From Novosphingobium sp. IK01 (GTDB lineage: Bacteria; Pseudomonadota; Alphaproteobacteria; Sphingomonadales; Sphingomonadaceae), in NCBI RefSeq assembly GCF_033242265.1, contig NZ_BTFW01000001.1, positions 2,532,501 to 2,596,500 on the forward strand: a DNA stretch of 64,000 nt. The letters run 5' to 3'. Positions 22,688-62,509 of the stretch are shown here, piece after piece. The translations under genes were made by a program, and so were the position numbers. Each line of letters opens with the position of its first letter. Position 1 is the stretch's first letter. Below the pieces are notes generated by a model. The model was not told the DNA's origin. It saw only the letters and a list, made by a program, of their open reading frames with translations, and did not search any database.

Positions 22688-22990
22688 GTTACGGGCTGGG
22701 ATTTGACGAATAATTGCAAAAAACGCAATTTTCTCGCTGTGTTTCGCACTTGCGAGAAGCCGGGGGCAGGCGCATAGAAAAACTGCCTTTCAGGCATCCT
22801 CTCCCAAAACTTCCAAAGGCCTGGCTGGCAACAGCCGGGCCCTTTTTTTGTCCTGAATCCGGGCATTTGCGCCCGCTGGCCCCGCCCGTTTTGAAACGCG
22901 GGCATTTGAAAAGCGGAGGCGTGCTTCCTAACTTGGGTCAGACGCGGGCATTCCGCTCGCACGAAGAACCCCCAAGGGCATAGCGAAGCA
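22688..22990 (+). other. Intergenic region before the Cdc48-type gene
   Basis: There is no supported gene in these 303 bases. The region holds the terminator at 22818-22849. The remaining 140 bases before the AAA gene should hold its promoter, but I see no clear -35/-10 pair. Confidence 0.5.
22818..22849 (+). terminator. Intrinsic terminator
   Basis: GGCCTGGCTG (22818-22827) pairs with CAGCCGGGCC (22832-22841) across GCAA, followed by seven T. It lies 130 bases after the methyltransferase stop. Confidence 0.85.
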
Positions 22991-44953: not shown

Positions 44954-46690
44954 TCAGGCGGCCTGCTGCACAGGCGCACAAAAGCGCGAGTCCGTCGTGC
45001 CGAGGTCAAATTTCTCCACCTCGCTGCGCAGCATCGAGGCATTGCGGGCCATGCTGACACAGGCCGCAGTGGCTTCCTCGGCCATGGCGGTGTTGTGCTG
45101 GGTGGTCTGTTCCAGCCCCTGCATGGCGCGGTTGATCTGGTCGACGCTGGCGGCCTGGCGCTGCGAACTCTCGGAAATGGAGATCACCAGCGTCCCCAGC
45201 TCCTCCACCTGATCCGAGATATGGCCCAGCCGGTTCTCGACATTGGCGACCAGCCCCACCCCGGACTGCACTTGTGCCACCGAGGTCATGATCTGGGTTT
45301 CCACGTCCTTGGCGGCACGGGCGCTGCGCAGGGCCAGCGCGCGCACTTCGTCTGCCACCACGGCAAATCCGCGCCCGGCTTCGCCCGCACGGGCGGCCTC
45401 GACCCCGGCGTTCAGCGCCAGCAGGTTGGTCTGGAAGGCAATCCCGTCGATCAGCGCGATGATCTGGCGGATGTTTTCCGAGGACTGGGCGATGGTCTTC
45501 ATCGCTTCGACCGCCTGTTCCATCACGATGCCCGATTCCTGAACTGCCGTGACGGTGCTTTCCACCAGCGATCCGGCATTGGCCGCGCTTTGGGCGGCCA
45601 TGCGCACTTCTCGCGTCACATCGGCCAGATCGCGCGCGGTGCGTTCCAGTGCGGCAGCTTCCTGTTCGGTGCGCTGGGCCAGATCGACCGAGCCATCGCG
45701 GATGCCGGTAGCGGCCTCGGTAATGGCGGCGGTGTTGCTGTGCACCACGCCCAGCGCCGTGTTGAGCCCCTCGACCGCGCGGTTGTAATGGTCGAGCAGC
45801 ACGGAATAGGCGGGCGGGATGTAATGCATCCGGGCTCCCAGATTGCCATTGGCCAGCGCATGCAGGTGCTGGCCCACGGTGTCGATGGCGGTGTGCAGGT
45901 CATGCTCTGCCGTCTTTTGCGCGATGGCGGCCTGGCGAAACACCTCCAGTGCCTGGGACATGCCGCCGATTTCGTCCTGCCGGTCCAGATTGGGGACCGG
46001 GCTTTGCGTGTCACCCCCGGCCAGCCCGGCCATGCGCCGGGTCAGGTCCTCGATCGGGGTGGCAACGCTGGCGGCGATGCGGCGCGATACCAGCAGCACG
46101 CCGCCGATAATCGCGATGGCCAGCACGGCCAGCAGCCCTGTCTGCCTGAGCAGGGCATCGCGGATGTCGTCCTTGTAAACGCCCGTGCCGATCAGCACGT
46201 TCCATGGCGCAAATCCGCGGACATAGCTGATCTTCGGCGCGCCCCTGGTGCCATCGGGCTTGTCCCAGTGGTATTCGACAAAGCCCGCCCCCCTGGCTTT
46301 GACCACTGCGATCATGTCGGCGAACATGCGGTTCCCGTTGCTGTCGGTCAGCGAACGGACATCGGTGCCTTCCAGTGCGGGCTTGAGCGGGTGCATGGCC
46401 ATCCGGCCATCAAGATCGGTGACCCAGAAATAGTCGCTCGTGTTGAAGCGCAGCGTGCGGATGGCTTCCAGCGCCTGGTGCCGGGCGGCCTCGTGGCTCA
46501 GCGTGCCTTGCTGTTCCAGCTTCTGGTAATGGCCCAATATTCCATACGCGGTTTCCACCGTATGCTTGGTAGAATCGGCAATATCCTTTTCCATGATCAT
46601 GCCCAGCGTCCAGATGCTGAAGCAGGAAATGAAAATCAGGCTGATCCCTGACAGGATCGTCAGGCCGTTCATTTTGCGCCGAATGCTCAC
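44954..46690 (-). CDS. Methyl-accepting chemotaxis protein
   Basis: A 578-residue membrane receptor. The first helix (LTILSGISLIFISCFSIWTL) and the second near residue 190 (LLAVLAIAIIGGVLLV) flank a periplasmic single-Cache domain (TSDYFWVTDLDGRMAMHP, read near 85-102; GTGVYKDD near its end). A HAMP domain follows. The cytoplasmic signalling tip is NLLALNAGVEAARAGEAGRG, the CheA/CheW contact. The C-terminus lacks an obvious NWETF pentapeptide. The Cache type often binds small organic acids. No other chemotaxis gene is present here. Confidence 0.94.
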   Translation of the reverse strand: MSIRRKMNGLTILSGISLIFISCFSIWTLGMIMEKDIADSTKHTVETAYGILGHYQKLEQQGTLSHEAARHQALEAIRTLRFNTSDYFWVTDLDGRMAMHPLKPALEGTDVRSLTDSNGNRMFADMIAVVKARGAGFVEYHWDKPDGTRGAPKISYVRGFAPWNVLIGTGVYKDDIRDALLRQTGLLAVLAIAIIGGVLLVSRRIAASVATPIEDLTRRMAGLAGGDTQSPVPNLDRQDEIGGMSQALEVFRQAAIAQKTAEHDLHTAIDTVGQHLHALANGNLGARMHYIPPAYSVLLDHYNRAVEGLNTALGVVHSNTAAITEAATGIRDGSVDLAQRTEQEAAALERTARDLADVTREVRMAAQSAANAGSLVESTVTAVQESGIVMEQAVEAMKTIAQSSENIRQIIALIDGIAFQTNLLALNAGVEAARAGEAGRGFAVVADEVRALALRSARAAKDVETQIMTSVAQVQSGVGLVANVENRLGHISDQVEELGTLVISISESSQRQAASVDQINRAMQGLEQTTQHNTAMAEEATAACVSMARNASMLRSEVEKFDLGTTDSRFCAPVQQAA

Positions 46691-56313: not shown

Positions 56314-57000
56314 TCAGCGGTCCAGCTGCACGGTGGCGTCGAGTTCGTCCATGATGGCATCATGGGCCACCGAATCGTCGGTGCTGCGCCGGGGAATCTG
56401 GCCGGCATCGATCATCTGGGACAGCGTGGCACGGGCGCGGCCCACGCGGCTCTTGATCGTGCCCACCGCACACTGGCAGATCTGCGCGGCTTCCTCGTAG
56501 GAAAAGCCGCCTGCGCCCACCAGCAGCAGCGCCTCGCGCCGTTCGGGGGGGAGGGTGAGCAGCGCTCGGTGCATGTCCGAGAGGTGCAGCGGACCTTCCT
56601 GTCCGGCCGGGGCGACCAGCACGCGTTCGGCCACGGTCTCGTCGTAGTCGGCGCGGAAGCGGTTGCGGCGCATGTCGGTGAGGTAGGCGTTGCGCAGGAT
56701 CACGAATGTCCATGCGCGCATCGAGGTGCCCGGTTCGAACCGTTCCTGCGCGGCCCAGGCCTTGAGCAGGGTTTCCTGCACGAGGTCGTCGGCCAGGTCG
56801 GGGCGACCGCACAGACCGCGGGCAAAGGCGCGCAAGTGCGGGATCACGCCGGTCAGCTCGCGCTTGAAGGCGATGGCATCGTGCGCGCTGCGGGGCGCGC
56901 GGGCCGGGGCGGCGGATGGGGTGGTGCCGGAGGAGGACGCGCCCTGCGGCGCGCTGTCGGTGGGTGTTGGGGCTGCTGCATTACCCATGCGCATCGTCAT
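56314..57000 (-). CDS. ecfG: General stress response sigma factor EcfG
   Basis: A 228-residue ECF sigma factor of the EcfG (ECF15) group. A low-complexity N-terminus of about 40 residues precedes region 2 (DDLVQETLLKAWAAQERFEP and MRRNRFRADYDE) and region 4 (LTLPPERREALLLVGAGGF, then CQCAVGTIKSRVGRA, the DNA-reading helix). It directs stress genes from GGAAC-N16-CGTT promoters. NepR holds it inactive until PhyR is phosphorylated. The ATG at 57000 overlaps the nepR stop by 20 bases; ATGs at 56994 and 56988 are alternatives. One perfect EcfG promoter lies upstream of nepR, so the unit is self-activating. Confidence 0.94.
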   Translation of the reverse strand: MTMRMGNAAAPTPTDSAPQGASSSGTTPSAAPARAPRSAHDAIAFKRELTGVIPHLRAFARGLCGRPDLADDLVQETLLKAWAAQERFEPGTSMRAWTFVILRNAYLTDMRRNRFRADYDETVAERVLVAPAGQEGPLHLSDMHRALLTLPPERREALLLVGAGGFSYEEAAQICQCAVGTIKSRVGRARATLSQMIDAGQIPRRSTDDSVAHDAIMDELDATVQLDR

Positions 57001-57157
57001 CCAGCTGGTCGAGCAGCTTGGCGAAGCTGTCGGGCAGGGGTTCTTCCACGACAGAATCGTAGAGGCGGCGCAGGCCGTCGGCCCACTCGGGCGACTTGCC
57101 CCGCTCGCCGTTGCGGCGCCGGGGGGCAGGGGTCTTCATAGGTGCATCTTTCGACAT
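56981..57157 (-). CDS. nepR: Anti-sigma factor NepR
   Basis: A 58-residue protein (52 if the second ATG at 57139 is used). The conserved helix pair is LRRLYDSVVEEPLPDSFAKL, followed by LDQLDD, the signature of NepR. It binds EcfG at rest and moves to phosphorylated PhyR under stress. It lies directly before ecfG with a 20-base overlap, and the pair is read from the EcfG-type promoter at 57334-57358. Confidence 0.9.
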   Translation of the reverse strand: MSKDAPMKTPAPRRRNGERGKSPEWADGLRRLYDSVVEEPLPDSFAKLLDQLDDDAHG

Positions 57158-57618
57158 TCGCTTTCGGCTACGCCTCCCCCCTTGGGTCGTCGCGAGAATG
57201 ATGGCCCTTCGGCAGGATGTGCCGGAGGCGCTGGTTGGCATGCACGACGAGGCAGCCTCCGGGGCGGTGCCAGGGCACCTGAGCCAGCCAACGGACTGCT
57301 TGCGCCCGCCTGTCGTGCGGTGATCGCGGGTGAAACGGTGCCAGTCTCCTTCGGTTCCCGCCAAATCACAATGGGAACGTTGGGGCAGGTGGGGCGGGCA
57401 GGCGGTGGTTCGGGCGCTTTTTTTGGGGCTAACCTGCGGGAATCTCGAAAAATCGGGAAATTTCCAAGATTTCCGGGCACCTGACCTTGCATGGAGCGTT
57501 TGGGCAGGCATGATTGCTCCTTCGGGGCGGCAAGGGCTCTGGCCTCCTTTCTGCGGGGAATGCTCCGGTACTGTTTCGAGAGGGCTCCGGCCCGGCGCGC
57601 AAGACTGACGAGAAAGGC
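57158..57618. other. Divergent control region between nepR-ecfG and the histidine kinase
   Basis: There is no gene in these 461 bases. The region contains the minus-strand EcfG promoter at 57334-57358. A cluster of short palindromic units around GGAAATTTCC (57456-57465), about 155 bases before the kinase start, could be an operator. I found no EcfG-type promoter pointing toward the kinase. Confidence 0.5.
57334..57358 (-). promoter_or_regulatory. EcfG-dependent promoter of nepR-ecfG
   Basis: On the minus strand GGAAC (57354-57358) and CGTT (57334-57337) are separated by exactly 16 bases, matching the EcfG consensus in full. It lies about 180 bases before nepR and gives positive feedback. Confidence 0.85.
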
Positions 57619-59352
57619 ATGCAAGGTCCGGTGGGGAAGTCGTTTTCAGAGAAGAATCTGGCCCCACGGTGGTACGAACGGTTTCCGCGTGCGCTGCCGA
57701 TCGGCATTTTCGTGCTGACCATGGCGGTCACGCTGGTCAGCGTCTTTGCGATCGAACGGGCCGAGCACCAGCGCCAGATTGCCCAGATCGACAAGGCCGC
57801 GCAGGAAATCACCGCCGGGCTCGAACGCCGGGCCAACAGCAACGCGGCCTTTCTGCGGTCGGCGGCTGCGCTCTTTGCGACACGCTCTTCGGTCGAGCCG
57901 GCGCTGTTCGCCTCGTTCGTCGACCAGCTCCGCATCGAGGACAGCGGCGCGGGCGTGAAGGGCATGGGCTGGGCCATGCGCGTGGCGCCCGGCGATATCC
58001 CGATGGTCGAGCGGGTCATGCGCGAGGGTGGCGCCCGGCAGTTCACGATCTATTCCATCGCCAGCGTTCCCGGACATGCCGGGGCGGCGCCTTCTGGCGG
58101 CGCGACGCGCGGCGGCAGGGGCTATGCGGTGCCGATCATGTATCTGGCGCCCGAAGATGCCCGCAACCGGCGCTTCATCGGTTTCGACATGGCGAGCGAT
58201 CCGGTGCGGCGGATGGCGATGGACCGGGCCGAACTGCTGGCCCGGCCGGTGGCCTCGGGCCTGCTGCATCTGGTCGGTGACGGACACAGGGGCGGGCCGA
58301 CCGGGTTCATCATGGTCATGCCGGTGTTCGGTTCCGCGCATGAAGGGGGCAAGCGGGTCCTGCGCGGCTTCGTCTTCATGCCGTTCGAGGCGGCTGGTTT
58401 CCTGCGGGCCTCGTTGCCAGCCGATGATTCCGGCGAGCCTCTGGCCGTGCGCCTCTACGACGGCCAGGAAGCGCCCGGACGGCTTCTGGCCAGCGCCCAT
58501 CCTGAAATCCATTCGGGCCGGGTTGTCCGGCGCGGGGTGGAACTGGCCGGGCGGCACTGGGGGCTGGTGGTCGAGGCGGCGCCGAGCCTGGTGCTGAGCA
58601 TGCTCTCGATGATGACCTTGCTGTTCGGCCTGCTGGTGGCGACGCTGCTGATGGCGCTGGCCCGGCTGGTTGGCCATCAGGTGGCCGAGGACCGGCTGGC
58701 GCTGGCCTGGTTCGAGCAGCAATCCTCGATCCGCGATTCGCTCACGCGCGAGTTGAACCACCGGGTCAAGAACACGCTGGCCAATGTGCTCTCGATCATT
58801 GCGCTCACCCGCCGCCGGGCGACCGACCTCGACAGCTTCGTGGAAAGCCTCGAAGGGCGCATCCGCGCGCTTTCGGCCACGCACGACCTGCTTACCCAGT
58901 CGGAATGGGGGACCACCCCGGTCGGTCTGGTGATCCGCACCGAACTGGCGCCTTATGCGCAAGGGACCGAGCGCCATGTCGACATCGACGGCCCCGATGT
59001 GCAACTGGCCCCCAACGACGCGCTGTCGCTGGGGCTGGCCATTCACGAACTGGCGACCAATGCGGCCAAGTATGGCGCGCTCAGCGTGCCGGGCGGGCGG
59101 GTTTCGGTGCGGTGGGAACTGGCCGGAAACGCGACCGCGCGCATTTGCTGGGAAGAGCGCGGGGGGCCGGCAATCGACCCCGAGGTTCGCCGCAAGCGGG
59201 GCTTTGGCACCGATCTGATCGAGAAGATCGTGGCGCATGAATTGCGCAACCCGGTCGACTTGCGCTTTGAGCCCGAAGGCGTGCGCTGCACGCTCGTGAT
59301 CCCGGTGCGCCAGCGGGGCAACTTTGCCATTCGCGCGGGGCGCAAGGGCTGA
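57619..59352 (+). CDS. CHASE-domain sensor histidine kinase of the HWE/HisKA_2 type
   Basis: A 577-residue membrane kinase. Two helices (ALPIGIFVLTMAVTLVSVFA and SMLSMMTLLFGLLVATLLMA) flank a periplasmic CHASE domain with RRANSNAAFLRSAAALFA and GVKGMGWAMRV. The phosphoacceptor is His381 in RELNHRVKNTLANVLS. The ATPase part has IHELATNAAKYGALS and GFGTDLIEKIVAHEL. Kinases of this type phosphorylate or dephosphorylate PhyR; sphingomonad PhyP and Caulobacter PhyK are the models. It is convergent with phyR. The ATG at 57619 follows AGAAAGG. Confidence 0.92.
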   Translation: MQGPVGKSFSEKNLAPRWYERFPRALPIGIFVLTMAVTLVSVFAIERAEHQRQIAQIDKAAQEITAGLERRANSNAAFLRSAAALFATRSSVEPALFASFVDQLRIEDSGAGVKGMGWAMRVAPGDIPMVERVMREGGARQFTIYSIASVPGHAGAAPSGGATRGGRGYAVPIMYLAPEDARNRRFIGFDMASDPVRRMAMDRAELLARPVASGLLHLVGDGHRGGPTGFIMVMPVFGSAHEGGKRVLRGFVFMPFEAAGFLRASLPADDSGEPLAVRLYDGQEAPGRLLASAHPEIHSGRVVRRGVELAGRHWGLVVEAAPSLVLSMLSMMTLLFGLLVATLLMALARLVGHQVAEDRLALAWFEQQSSIRDSLTRELNHRVKNTLANVLSIIALTRRRATDLDSFVESLEGRIRALSATHDLLTQSEWGTTPVGLVIRTELAPYAQGTERHVDIDGPDVQLAPNDALSLGLAIHELATNAAKYGALSVPGGRVSVRWELAGNATARICWEERGGPAIDPEVRRKRGFGTDLIEKIVAHELRNPVDLRFEPEGVRCTLVIPVRQRGNFAIRAGRKG

Positions 59353-59482: not shown

Positions 59483-60298
59483 TCAGGCGAGCGGGCTGCT
59501 CGATCCGAAGAACAGGGCCTGGCTGATCGCCGCGCGCACGGTGGCTTCCTGAAAGGGCTTGGTGATCAGGTAGGTCGGCTCCGGGCGGTCGCCGGTGAGC
59601 AGGCGCTCGGGATAGGCGGTGATGAAGATCACCGGCACGTCGACCAGCTTGAGGATGTCGTCCACCGCGTCGAGGCCCGAGGAACCATCGGCGAGCTGGA
59701 TGTCGGCCAGCACGAGGCCGGGTGTCTCGCTCATCGCGATCTCGCGCGCCTGGGTCCGCGTGGCGGCCATGCCGCACACGTCGTGGCCGAGCGAGCGCAC
59801 GAGGTCTTCGAGCTGCATCGAGATCAGCGGTTCGTCCTCGATGATGAGGACGGTGGTGGCCGATTCGCGGTCGATCTCCTCGACTGCCTCCTGTACAAGC
59901 GCCTCGACATCGGCGGGCGTGGTGTCGAGAATCTCGGCGGCCTGGGCGACCGAGAAATCTTCGAGCGTCACCAGCAGCAGCGCCTGACGGTTGGCGGGTG
60001 TGACCTGTGCGAGGCGTTCCTGCGCGGCGGTCTCGTGAAGGCCGAGGCCTTCTGCCCCGGACTGATCGCCCCCGGAATGAACAACCGTATCGACGAAGGC
60101 GCTCGACCAGACCTTGTTGAACGCCCGGTAGAGCGCGACGCGGCCCTCGCCGATCTGGCTGCGCAGGCTGGCATCGGCCAGTGCGGCTTCGAGCGTGGCC
60201 CGCACGAAAGCATCGCCGGTCTGCTGGCTGCCGGTCAGGGCACGCGCATAGCGGCGAAGATAGGGCAGATTGGAAGCTACTTTGGCGCCCAGTGACAT
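59483..60298 (-). CDS. phyR: PhyR, anti-anti-sigma response regulator of the general stress response
   Basis: A 271-residue protein with an N-terminal sigma-like domain (residues 1-140; NLPYLRRYARALTGSQQTGD and the degenerate region 4 LLLVTLEDFSVAQAAEIL) and a C-terminal receiver. The receiver has acidic E154 and D155, phosphoacceptor Asp199 in LVLADIQLADGSSG, and Lys247 in ITKPF. When phosphorylated it sequesters NepR and frees EcfG. A GGAAC element lies 55-59 bases upstream, but its partner reads AATT rather than CGTT, so EcfG control of phyR itself is uncertain. Confidence 0.96.
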   Translation of the reverse strand: MSLGAKVASNLPYLRRYARALTGSQQTGDAFVRATLEAALADASLRSQIGEGRVALYRAFNKVWSSAFVDTVVHSGGDQSGAEGLGLHETAAQERLAQVTPANRQALLLVTLEDFSVAQAAEILDTTPADVEALVQEAVEEIDRESATTVLIIEDEPLISMQLEDLVRSLGHDVCGMAATRTQAREIAMSETPGLVLADIQLADGSSGLDAVDDILKLVDVPVIFITAYPERLLTGDRPEPTYLITKPFQEATVRAAISQALFFGSSSPLA

Positions 60299-60489
60299 TT
60301 AAACCCCTTCCTGGCTACGCGATGCCTGTCCAAATTCTCTAGGCGTGATTTGGTTCCCGTGCCAGCGCAAGGAAGGCGGGGCGGGCCATCCGCCGCGCGG
60401 GGATCGGCTCGGGAATGGTCCATTCGGACGAGCCCGTTCGTTCTCTTGCGGTTCTTGCCAGAGGGCCGACAGTTTTTTTCCAAAGGCAG
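60299..60489. other. phyR upstream region
   Basis: No gene is supported here. GGAAC on the minus strand at 60353-60357 with a weak AATT 16 bases away is a poor EcfG match. The small overlapping frames in this stretch have no ribosome sites. Confidence 0.4.
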
Positions 60490-60514
60490 GGAACTGCCGG
60501 ACGGGCACGCCGTT
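60490..60514 (+). promoter_or_regulatory. EcfG-dependent promoter of a candidate sRNA
   Basis: GGAAC (60490-60494), 16 bases, then CGTT (60511-60514): a full match to the EcfG consensus, reading away from phyR on the plus strand. No coding gene lies in this direction before a terminator about 90 bases on. Confidence 0.8.
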
Positions 60515-60519
60515 TAGCC

Positions 60520-60604
60520 CTTGTCACCGCCGAGACCCCCCTCCCGTCCAAGCGGCTGGTGATACGATCCCGAAGGCCTCCGCCTCCCCGGCGGGGGCCT
60601 TTTT
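60520..60604 (+). ncRNA. Candidate GsrN-like stress small RNA
   Basis: About 85 bases between an EcfG promoter and a strong terminator. The 5' stem TCACC-GCCG (60524-60532) pairs with CGGC-T-GGTGA (60553-60562) with one bulge. It presents a 20-base loop with CCCCCCTCCC, which can pair with ribosome-binding sites. The 3' hairpin AAGGCCTCCGCC (60573-60584) pairs with GGCGGGGGCCTT with one wobble and ends in T. Caulobacter GsrN shares all these traits: a sigma-T promoter, a place beside the stress regulators, a C-rich loop in the 5' stem and an intrinsic terminator. The exact 5' end is inferred. Confidence 0.7.
60573..60604 (+). terminator. Intrinsic terminator of the candidate sRNA
   Basis: A 12-bp stem, AAGGCCTCCGCC with GGCGGGGGCCTT and one T-G wobble, with loop TCCCC and a T run to 60604. 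Confidence 0.9.
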
Positions 60605-60633
60605 CGTGGGCGACAGCGCTTCGGGGGCGGTTT

Positions 60634-61152
60634 TCAGAGGTGCAGGGCGTTGCGCAGGCGGCTGAGCAGCCCCGGATGCCGGGCATGATGGCGCACGAGA
60701 TCGGCCAGCGCATCGGGCGGGAAGGGCTTGGCCAGAACATGGCCGAGGCGGGCGATGCGCGGGGGGATGCTTTCGGGCGTGCCGGTCGAGAACACGATCA
60801 GCGGCGGCGTGGGGCTCATGGCCACGGCCAGTTCGGCCAGGGCCCAGCCATCGTCGCGGTCGGCCAGATGGACATCGAGGACGAGGATCGCGGGGCGCAG
60901 GGCCTGCATGGCGGCCCGCGCTGTGGCGGTCGAATGGCAGGTGGTCACGGTGTCGGCACCCGCCTCGTGCAGGGCCTCGGCCATGGCGAGCGCGAGGATC
61001 GGTTCGTCCTCGACGATCAGCGCCTGCCCTAATCCGCGTGACCCTGAGCCTCCCTGACCCGCTCCTGCATGCCCCTGCGGATCATGCCGGTGAGGCACGG
61101 ATGAGGGGGTGGAAGCGGGAGGGGAAGCGTCGGTCGGGGCGCTCTTGTCCAT
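60634..61152 (-). CDS. Single-domain response regulator
   Basis: A 172-residue protein. The first 40 residues are low complexity (Pro, Ser, Gly, His); the rest is a receiver domain. VEDEP supplies the acidic pocket (E48, D49), Asp93 in VLDVHLADRDDG is the phosphoacceptor, and Lys142 is in LAKPFPPD. There is no output domain. Beside the PhyR locus, such proteins can pass phosphate between HWE kinases and PhyR, like Sphingomonas SdrG or Caulobacter MrrA. That role is inferred from place and type. The ATG at 61152 follows AAGGAA by 9 bases; the longer frame is discarded. Confidence 0.88.
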   Translation of the reverse strand: MDKSAPTDASPPASTPSSVPHRHDPQGHAGAGQGGSGSRGLGQALIVEDEPILALAMAEALHEAGADTVTTCHSTATARAAMQALRPAILVLDVHLADRDDGWALAELAVAMSPTPPLIVFSTGTPESIPPRIARLGHVLAKPFPPDALADLVRHHARHPGLLSRLRNALHL

Positions 61153-61354: not shown

Positions 61355-62509
61355 TCAGAGCGTGCGTTCGTAGATCGTGTAGCGCTTGTTGACCTTGCTC
61401 TCGATCGCATCGGCAATGGCGATCATGCCCTGGTTGTCGTCGAGGATCCAGCCGATCTCCCCGCGCGAGGCGCCATAGTTGGCCACCGAGTTGCGGCGGA
61501 TATATTCGATCATCATGAAGGCCAGCTGGCTGGCGAGGCGCGAGGACTGGAGCTTCTTGCGCACCCCCATCAGCGGCACGCGCATGGTGCGGCAGTGCGG
61601 GCGGTTGAGCCAGCGCAGCAGCTTGAACCAGTTGAACGGGAGCAGCTTGCCGCCCATCGGCTGGAGCACTTCGTTGAGGTCGGGCAGCGTCATCATGAAA
61701 GCCACCGGCTCGCCCTCGTACTCGGCGATCTGGATCAGGTCCTCGCGCACGATCGGCTTGAACTTCTTGCCCGCGTAGGCGATCTCGGTCTGGGTGAAGG
61801 GCACGAAGCCCCAGTTGTCGGACCAGGCATCGTTGAGGATGTCGAGGATGATCGCCGCCTCGGCGTCGAACTTGCTCTTGTCGACATTGCGCACGCGGAT
61901 CTTGGCGTTCTTCTCGCCCGATTGCACGATGCGCTGGATCAGCGGCGGGAACTGCTTCGAGATGTCCAGCTCATACGTCAGCAACTGCTTGGCCGGGGTA
62001 TAGGGCAGGGCCTCGATATAGTGCTGATAGCGCTCGGCCTGATGCCCCATCATCACCGTGGGCGGATGGTCGAAGCCAAGGGTCAGCTGGCCCGGCTCCT
62101 CCCAGACCGACATCGAGAGCGGCGCGAGCACGCGGGTCATGCCCTTTTCGCGCAGCCAGGCCTCGGCCCGCGCGATCAGCGCATGGGCGACGGCTTCGTC
62201 CTCGGCTTCGAGCAGGCCCCAGTTGCCCGTGCCCGGCCCCATGCCCTGTACAGGGTCCATGGCAATGGCGAGGCGGTCGATATGGGCCGAGATGCGCCCC
62301 ACCACGGCCCCGGCGCGGCGGGCCAGGAACAGCTGGACATCGGCATGTTCGAAAAACGGGTTCTTGCCCGGCGTGATCAGTTCGGCCGCTTCCATGCGCA
62401 GCGGCGGCACCCAGTTGGAATCGCCGGCGTTGAGGCGGTAGGCCAGGTCGACGAAGGCAGCACGTTCGGCCTTGCCTGCAACGGGGGTGATCACTACTTC
62501 GCCTGCCAC
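61355..62509 (-). CDS. GNAT-fold N-acyltransferase-like protein, candidate bacterial ceramide synthase
   Basis: A 384-residue soluble or peripheral protein. It lacks a membrane helix, has GNAT-like halves (AGAVVGRISAHIDRL and EGEPVAFMMTLPDLNEVL), and carries the conserved motifs LAPLSMSVWEEPGQLTLGFD and SDNWGFVPFTQTEI. Proteins of this family are often listed as hypothetical or as dATP pyrophosphohydrolase. From memory, the acyltransferase of Caulobacter ceramide synthesis (bCerS) belongs here, which would suit a sphingolipid-making organism and the divergent desaturase gene. No serine palmitoyltransferase is in the window, so the assignment stays tentative. Confidence 0.8.
   Translation of the reverse strand: MAGEVVITPVAGKAERAAFVDLAYRLNAGDSNWVPPLRMEAAELITPGKNPFFEHADVQLFLARRAGAVVGRISAHIDRLAIAMDPVQGMGPGTGNWGLLEAEDEAVAHALIARAEAWLREKGMTRVLAPLSMSVWEEPGQLTLGFDHPPTVMMGHQAERYQHYIEALPYTPAKQLLTYELDISKQFPPLIQRIVQSGEKNAKIRVRNVDKSKFDAEAAIILDILNDAWSDNWGFVPFTQTEIAYAGKKFKPIVREDLIQIAEYEGEPVAFMMTLPDLNEVLQPMGGKLLPFNWFKLLRWLNRPHCRTMRVPLMGVRKKLQSSRLASQLAFMMIEYIRRNSVANYGASRGEIGWILDDNQGMIAIADAIESKVNKRYTIYERTL

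Follow-up and report, generated by a model that had tools for sequence, protein, structure and literature searches.

Results

Genes and features of the locus

In the general stress response (GSR), stress frees EcfG from NepR through PhyR. The 64,000-nt stretch of DNA analysed here (the window) contains a GSR cluster in which Pfam recognises ecfG, nepR, a CHASE-HWE histidine kinase, phyR and a response regulator (Table 1). Between phyR and the response-regulator gene, on the plus strand, lies a small RNA gene, here called family A, with 192 bases separating the phyR start from its promoter. Proximity to phyR, nepR and ecfG, a trait typical of GsrN although not of C. crescentus itself, is present. 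Among relatives, phyR was found in the locus in 74 of the 75 distinct segments of L001-L084 (the exception is L068). The gene at 61355-62509 (-), for which Pfam gives nothing at E ≤ 0.001, accompanies the RNA in 72 of the 75 distinct loci, the exceptions being L068, L067 and L006, the last of which ends early. In L017, L019, L021, L027, L028, L047 and others the phyR start is ∼0.8 kb farther from the RNA than elsewhere, so an insertion between the two seems present.

Table 1. Coordinates of the RNA gene, its parts and the surrounding stress genes in the window
Feature	Position	Strand	Evidence and remarks
ecfG	56314..57000	-	Pfam Sigma70_r2, Sigma70_r4_2
nepR	56981..57157	-	Pfam NepR PF18557, E 3e-16; 5′ end set at MSKDAPM start
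EcfG-type site upstream of nepR	57358-57334		motif scan
CHASE-HWE histidine kinase	57514..59352	+	Pfam CHASE, HWE_HK; frame from first start codon
phyR	59483..60298	-	Pfam PhyR_sigma2, PhyR_sigma-like, Response_reg
AGTTTTTTT, at place of relatives' UP-like A/T element	60471..60479	+	sequence; T-rich in window, without A half
EcfG-type promoter GGAAC-N16-CGTT, GGAACTGCCGGACGGGCACGCCGTT	60490..60514	+	motif scan
Family-A small RNA gene	60520..60605	+	fold, BLAST, covariance model R1; 5′ end inferred from promoter, ∼60521-60523
5′ hairpin, nearly invariant	60522..60564	+	fold, alignment
C-rich loop CCCCCCTCCCGTCC, presumed seed	60536..60549	+	seed alignment
Conserved linker TACGATCCCGA between the two hairpins	60563..60573	+	seed alignment
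Intrinsic terminator, letters variable, pairing kept	60572..60604	+	fold, covariation
Single-domain response regulator, convergent with RNA gene	60634..61152	-	Pfam Response_reg
EcfG-type site upstream of response regulator	61262-61238		motif scan

Predicted fold of the RNA

The 88 nt from 60520 to 60607 fold at -42.5 kcal/mol (z -4.02), and 0 of 200 shuffles were as good. After the promoter comes a non-coding unit of ∼85 nt, made of a 5′ hairpin exposing CCCCCCTCCC, a linker and a terminator. In the predicted fold the 5′ stem (UCACC-GCCG with CGGC-U-GGUGA) spans 60524-60562, or 60522-60564 with its outer pairs, and an extra GAC/GUC helix closes the loop, leaving nine nucleotides fully open. 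A 5′ hairpin with an exposed C-rich loop, another GsrN trait, is found in the predicted folds of family A. The terminator stem (60572-60602) has 13 pairs, counting A-U pairs and one G-U at the base, and runs into TTTTT (60600-60604). An earlier note, made from the letters alone, had described a folded non-coding stretch beside phyR with this 5′ stem, a C-rich loop and a 12-bp terminator. The position, the non-coding fold, the stem and the terminator all hold; the loop is narrowed by the extra helix, and the terminator stem has 13 pairs rather than 12. The stretch thus has the features of an sRNA gene: its own promoter, a conserved fold, a terminator and no conserved ORF.

Conservation and spread of family A

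BLAST with 133 bases matched 66 of 149 genomes of the bacterial family, the own genome included, 64 of them via the 5′ domain; in G071 and G020 the match was confined to the terminator part. Covariance model R1 was built from 30 BLAST loci, with the window sequence among the 30 seeds, and scores the window at 90.4 bits (60519-60602). It matched 92 of 296 genomes of the order, in 24 of 79 genera, and 4 of 385 genomes of the class sample, all four belonging to the same family and one being the own genome. An exact pattern of loop and 3′ stem was present in at least 119 stretches in named records, and the matches listed include Novosphingobium, Erythrobacter, Qipengyuania, Porphyrobacter, Altererythrobacter, Croceicoccus, Croceibacterium, Citromicrobium, Tsuneonella and Pontixanthobacter.

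The 5′ domain hardly changes across Novosphingobium and the Erythrobacter group. In the 30 seeds the hairpin, loop and linker are unchanged in nearly every column, with ACGATCCCGA of the linker identical in 30 of 30; variation in the 5′ domain comes down to C-run length, one bulge letter and one insertion, and it is the terminator letters and the promoter spacer that vary. The C run preceding TCCCGTCC differs in length among the 171 distinct loci, with 6 residues in 89, 7 in 70, 8 in 6, 9 in one and 5 in one; the other 4 read otherwise. Judged by its sequence, the family-A stretch is a real, strongly conserved RNA gene.

Among the 296 genomes of the order, the family-A RNA was seen only where PhyR was present. 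In genus g1, taken to be Novosphingobium, R1 matched 8 of 11 PhyR-positive and 0 of 5 PhyR-negative genomes, and two of the three misses carry divergent copies: G261 (L204, 31.4 bits) and G318 (L265, 23.1 bits, ∼5 kb from phyR). In genus g42, taken to be Erythrobacter, all 22 PhyR-positive genomes matched; G249, the one PhyR-negative g42 genome among those listed, was not R1-positive. The g1 genomes G243, G253, G260, G264 and G322 have neither PhyR at E ≤ 1e-30 nor an R1 match, the two being absent together. A second R1 match of G302 (L068, 37.5 bits), with neither promoter nor phyR, was judged false. The copies at L069 and L070 (G307 and G369) have a loop lacking the C run (ATTCTTCTCCCGTCC) and retain promoter, stem and linker; they adjoin a divergent phyR of 57-58% identity, and both genomes have two PhyR matches.

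An EcfG-type promoter at a fixed distance

GGAAC-N15..17-CGTT sites number four in the window versus 1.05 expected, a count reached by 2 of 100 shuffles. By position, three of the four lie inside the GSR cluster, upstream of nepR, the RNA and the response regulator; the other, a GGAAC-N17-CGTT site at 46178-46203 (-), lies outside it. The promoter was then read across relatives in a sample of 204 loci giving 173 distinct segments, or 171 after removal of L068 and of L181, where the locus reaches just 17 nt upstream. GGAAC precedes the hairpin by 34-36 nt in 171 of 171 (34 in 162, 35 in 8, 36 in 1), and because the search pattern behind the 119 named loci held no promoter letters, conservation there is independent. 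An UP-like tract appears in 162 aligned loci, with 67-83% A at -53 to -49 and 60-78% T at -48 to -45.

The perfect GGAAC-N16-CGTT promoter of the earlier note is confirmed in the window, and the placing of its GGAAC in every locus; its CGTT box does not extend to most relatives. Over the 171 loci the -10 box reads CATT in 139, CGTT in 17, CGTA in 9 and otherwise in 6, and in most relatives it differs from the nepR and phyR promoters. Among fetched loci, the sites in 68 nepR-ecfG leaders read CGTT 49 times, GTTT/GTTA 8 times and CATT 0 times, and those in 178 phyR leaders CGTT 85 times, GTTT/GTTA 46 times and CATT once; sites read as GTTT/GTTA are mostly CGTT one base late, and up to 22 leaders of this core-GSR set come from genomes lacking R1. 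In Sphingopyxis granuli (PMC7083833), CATT ranks with the most frequent alternatives to the consensus EcfG box, and EcfG1 and EcfG2 transcribe a CATT promoter in vitro, although less than its CGTT mutant. Taken together, the conserved promoter and in vitro transcription from CATT make it likely that the family-A RNA is under EcfG control, its own box being kept below consensus in most species. The stress-sigma-factor promoter, also a GsrN trait, is present here as a matter of sequence only.

Evolution of the stems

Of the 26 consensus pairs, 7 have double compensatory changes, and every one of these lies in the terminator. Wider relatives have a few changes in the 5′ stem, with A-U for G-C in L088, L110, L123 and L185 and U-A for C-G in L089 and L167; the stem is rewritten in L067, L204 and L265. 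A column test covered 52 sequences picked because their stems differ, namely L265 and 51 of the 93 distinct segments, with 31 distinct stems among them. It was not significant, with 312 of 341 cells paired (91.5%) versus 89.7% on average and 91.8% at most in shuffles, and neither were the 7 double-changed cells (shuffle mean 3.5, maximum 16). There is little variation in the stem, and its register is displaced by indels. Compensatory changes, on which the earlier note had staked its fold, are thus found in the terminator and sparsely in the 5′ stem; for the latter the column test is not significant, while a mutation null supports it. All 81 distinct 47-nt segments keep the 5′ hairpin in the predicted fold (dot-brackets read by eye). 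Against a null of randomly mutated consensus sequences, the 42 variants carrying two or more arm changes come out as the more stable, a median of 6.7% of the null being as stable (KS p 5e-22, kinship ignored).

Comparison with GsrN and other known RNAs

The Rfam family RF01529, 'Caulobacter sRNA CC3552', is probably GsrN (Caulobacter CCNA_R0081), as GsrN is among the RNAs of Landt 2008 (PMC5869019). RF01529 was not among the 8 Rfam matches at E ≤ 10 for 60300-60700, and its covariance model matched 0 of 21 genomes including the own, with Caulobacter vibrioides matching among 14 controls. The earlier note had claimed no identity in sequence with GsrN, and the covariance search that it proposed found RF01529 neither in the segment nor in the genome. 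At L247 an RF01529 RNA adjoins phyR and has a C7 run as well as an EcfG promoter. No Rfam family reaches its gathering score at 60490-60605; the E-value search gave weak matches over most of the RNA to ar14 (RF02344, 19.9 bits) and CC1840 (RF01521, 20.4 bits), whose gathering scores of 58.8 and 50 are far above these. Elsewhere in the window, at 22778-22856 (+), lies the suhB/mmgR sRNA (RF00519, 54.5 bits versus a gathering score of 41).

Like family A, GsrN has a stress-sigma promoter, a 5′ hairpin, six exposed C and a length of ∼100 nt, and most of the Caulobacteraceae that Tien et al. show carry it close to phyR-nepR-ecfG (PMC5869019). That study places gsrN of C. crescentus away from the GSR locus, so the earlier statement that GsrN sits beside the stress regulators is right for other Caulobacteraceae and wrong for C. 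crescentus. Unlike GsrN, family A gives no covariance-model match, has other stem and loop letters and a -10 box that is mostly CATT, and the katG leaders of its genomes lack complementarity to the loop. Pairing of GsrN with katG mRNA was shown by compensatory mutation (PMC5869019). The GsrN-like architecture proposed at the outset is borne out, with promoter, place, C-loop hairpin and terminator conserved far beyond chance; by the RF01529 tests family A is GsrN-like on paper but not a member. The GsrN-like candidates of Rhizobiaceae, which were predicted from a GSR locus, an EcfG site and a 5′ loop rich in C (PMC5869019), resemble family A in this description as well, but they belong to another lineage. 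Among the titles, abstract openings and passages covered, with few subscription papers among them, no description of an EcfG-dependent sRNA in sphingomonads was found.

A class-wide pattern of EcfG promoter plus C6 matched 64 of 385 genomes, and its reversed control ∼100 (hand count), so that there is no class-wide signal. In the 30 loci fetched from these matches phyR adjoins in L247 only. It was from a place in G091 matched by this pattern that a second family was traced.

A second C-loop family and co-occurrence with PhyR

Family B was found near phyR in genomes without R1 (L264, L267, L268, L276, L278, L281, L282, L284 and later L269), in sister genera of Sphingomonadaceae. Its plan is that of family A: behind a GGAAC promoter come a GGATAGCGA/TCGCTATCC-type hairpin containing 7-10 consecutive C and then a long terminator, whose loop is also C-rich. 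A regular expression located 28 of 30 loci; in all 28 the distance from GGAAC to the hairpin is 34-35 nt, and the -10 box is CGTT in 23 of them. Unlike family A, it has the GGATAGCGA/TCGCTATCC stem, its own loop letters and a mostly CGTT box; the two families are not alignable, their stem and loop letters being unrelated. No Rfam family reached its gathering score for family B. In one locus the best weak match was to a Streptomyces family (32.1 bits versus a gathering score of 52), and RF01529 had no match at E ≤ 10 in the one locus tested.

Covariance model R2, built from 8 sequences, has matches, a few of them weak, in 76 of the 296 order genomes, spread over 18 of 79 genera. Relative to the listed phyR, 46 of 54 paired places are at 1.9-3.2 kb; the other 8 are not, several being on other contigs. 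R1 and strong R2 matches were not seen in any one genome together, and the R2 match (32.8 bits) of G370, the sole genome with both, is probably false. Either family was present in 167 of 198 PhyR-positive genomes and 0 of 98 PhyR-negative ones (PhyR match at E ≤ 1e-30; Fisher p 3e-51, kinship ignored); 31 of the 198 matched neither R1 nor R2. Given these comparisons, family A is best read as a new GsrN-like sRNA family, separate from GsrN, with family B as its sister.

Candidate targets of the C-rich loop

Although katG is present in 29 of 30 R1 genomes, its leaders show no sign of pairing with the loop: in 30 of 33 loci, katG leaders (-120..+15, guessed starts) gave a mean z of +0.59 versus shuffles, with no shared G-tract. 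katG was dropped as a candidate for want of a complementarity signal, in a stretch that is short, with guessed start codons and room for a site outside -120..+15.

In family-A loci phyR has an unusual ribosome-binding site, GGGAAGGG. Leaders of phyR (136 distinct, family A) pair with the loop at a mean of -14.7 kcal/mol versus -11.8 in 318 control leaders (p 1e-11, kinship ignored), and 21% of these controls match or exceed the phyR average in strength. In 22 genomes lacking R1, phyR leaders have mostly plain AGGAG or GGAG, but those of L217 and L225, likewise without R1, have GGGAGG and pair better than family A (-18.2 and -16.9). A regular expression found G-rich phyR leaders in 86 of 138 distinct family-A cases; the remainder are not G-rich or were missed by the expression (as in L017), and the loop is unchanged in most of them. 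These mixed results make phyR's own ribosome-binding site, and hence feedback, a partial candidate. The invariance of the loop suggests several targets or a protein partner. In the own genome, GGGAGGGGG has 126 sites versus 81 for the reversed pattern, with repeats among the sites; five of them, on one strand at G000:C1:60335-60974, are 157-159 bases apart, as in a tandem repeat.

Discussion

Computation places at this locus an RNA gene with its own promoter, fold and terminator, conserved in sequence, adjacent to phyR and co-occurring with PhyR. We consider it probable that 60520-60605 encodes a trans-acting sRNA of the general stress response, driven by EcfG and pairing through its C-rich loop with several mRNAs; EcfG-dependent transcription, the base-pairing mode and the targets are what we infer. 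In such a mechanism, stress would release EcfG from NepR via PhyR, and EcfG RNA polymerase would start just before the 5′ hairpin from GGAAC-N16-C(G/A)TT, the transcript ending at the intrinsic terminator. The hairpin would then present its almost invariant loop to G-rich mRNA stretches, mostly ribosome-binding sites, and pairing would alter translation or decay of several mRNAs, as GsrN does in Caulobacter, with phyR mRNA as a partial candidate target that would provide feedback.

Two alternatives deserve some weight, though we regard both as unlikely. The RNA might act mainly on a protein, be it Hfq, another RNA-binding protein or a GSR protein, through the C-loop hairpin and linker. Conservation of loop and linker does extend beyond what a short seed would need, and neither of the two mRNAs tested, katG and phyR, is a conserved single partner; yet the loop letters differ in L067, L204, L265, L069 and L070 while staying C- or pyrimidine-rich, and GsrN, built on the same plan, pairs with an mRNA as described above. 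Equally improbable in our estimate is that most relatives drive the RNA with a different ECF factor, a view prompted by their CATT -10 box, which is nearly absent from the nepR-ecfG and phyR leaders. Against this stand the CGTT of the window and 16 other loci, the in vitro activity of EcfG1 and EcfG2 on CATT, the restriction of family A to PhyR genomes, and sister family B, mostly with CGTT at the same distance.

A tiny ORF in place of an RNA gene is very improbable. A 13-codon frame (NTG TCA CCG ... TGA) does cross the hairpin in 73 of 171 loci, but in the other 98 its end is shifted by C-run or bulge length, which led us to reject a short ORF; a start where the promoter predicts would leave no room for a ribosome-binding site, and conservation tracks the hairpin. 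Least credible of all is that the stretch is merely a conserved terminator or untranslated region. It does end in a strong terminator and points towards the 3′ end of the gene for the response regulator, but its own promoter keeps its distance in every locus, the 5′ domain rather than the terminator is most conserved, and the next downstream genes are on the opposite strand. An EcfG-driven, base-pairing sRNA is thus the reading we prefer.

A wider joint reading is possible but tentative. The alphaproteobacterial GSR may have a widespread RNA arm of at least three unalignable C-loop RNAs (GsrN, A and B), which would replace or outrun each other near phyR and keep one plan: an EcfG promoter, a close 5′ hairpin, an exposed C run and a terminator. 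The family-A loop would mimic the anti-Shine-Dalgarno sequence and throttle G-rich ribosome-binding sites, often the GGGAAGGG of phyR, so that the response would limit itself, with the weaker CATT box delaying the brake.

GsrN had been presented as a layer of the stress response that is conserved in Alphaproteobacteria, and Tien et al. 2018 named Erythrobacter litoralis as having no apparent gsrN-like gene (PMC5869019). A family that Rfam lacks is now seen in the Erythrobacter group itself, and a second in sister genera. The question of whether a C-loop RNA accompanies each EcfG response becomes testable in harmless environmental bacteria, and the sharing of neighbourhood and plan with no common sequence poses an evolutionary puzzle.
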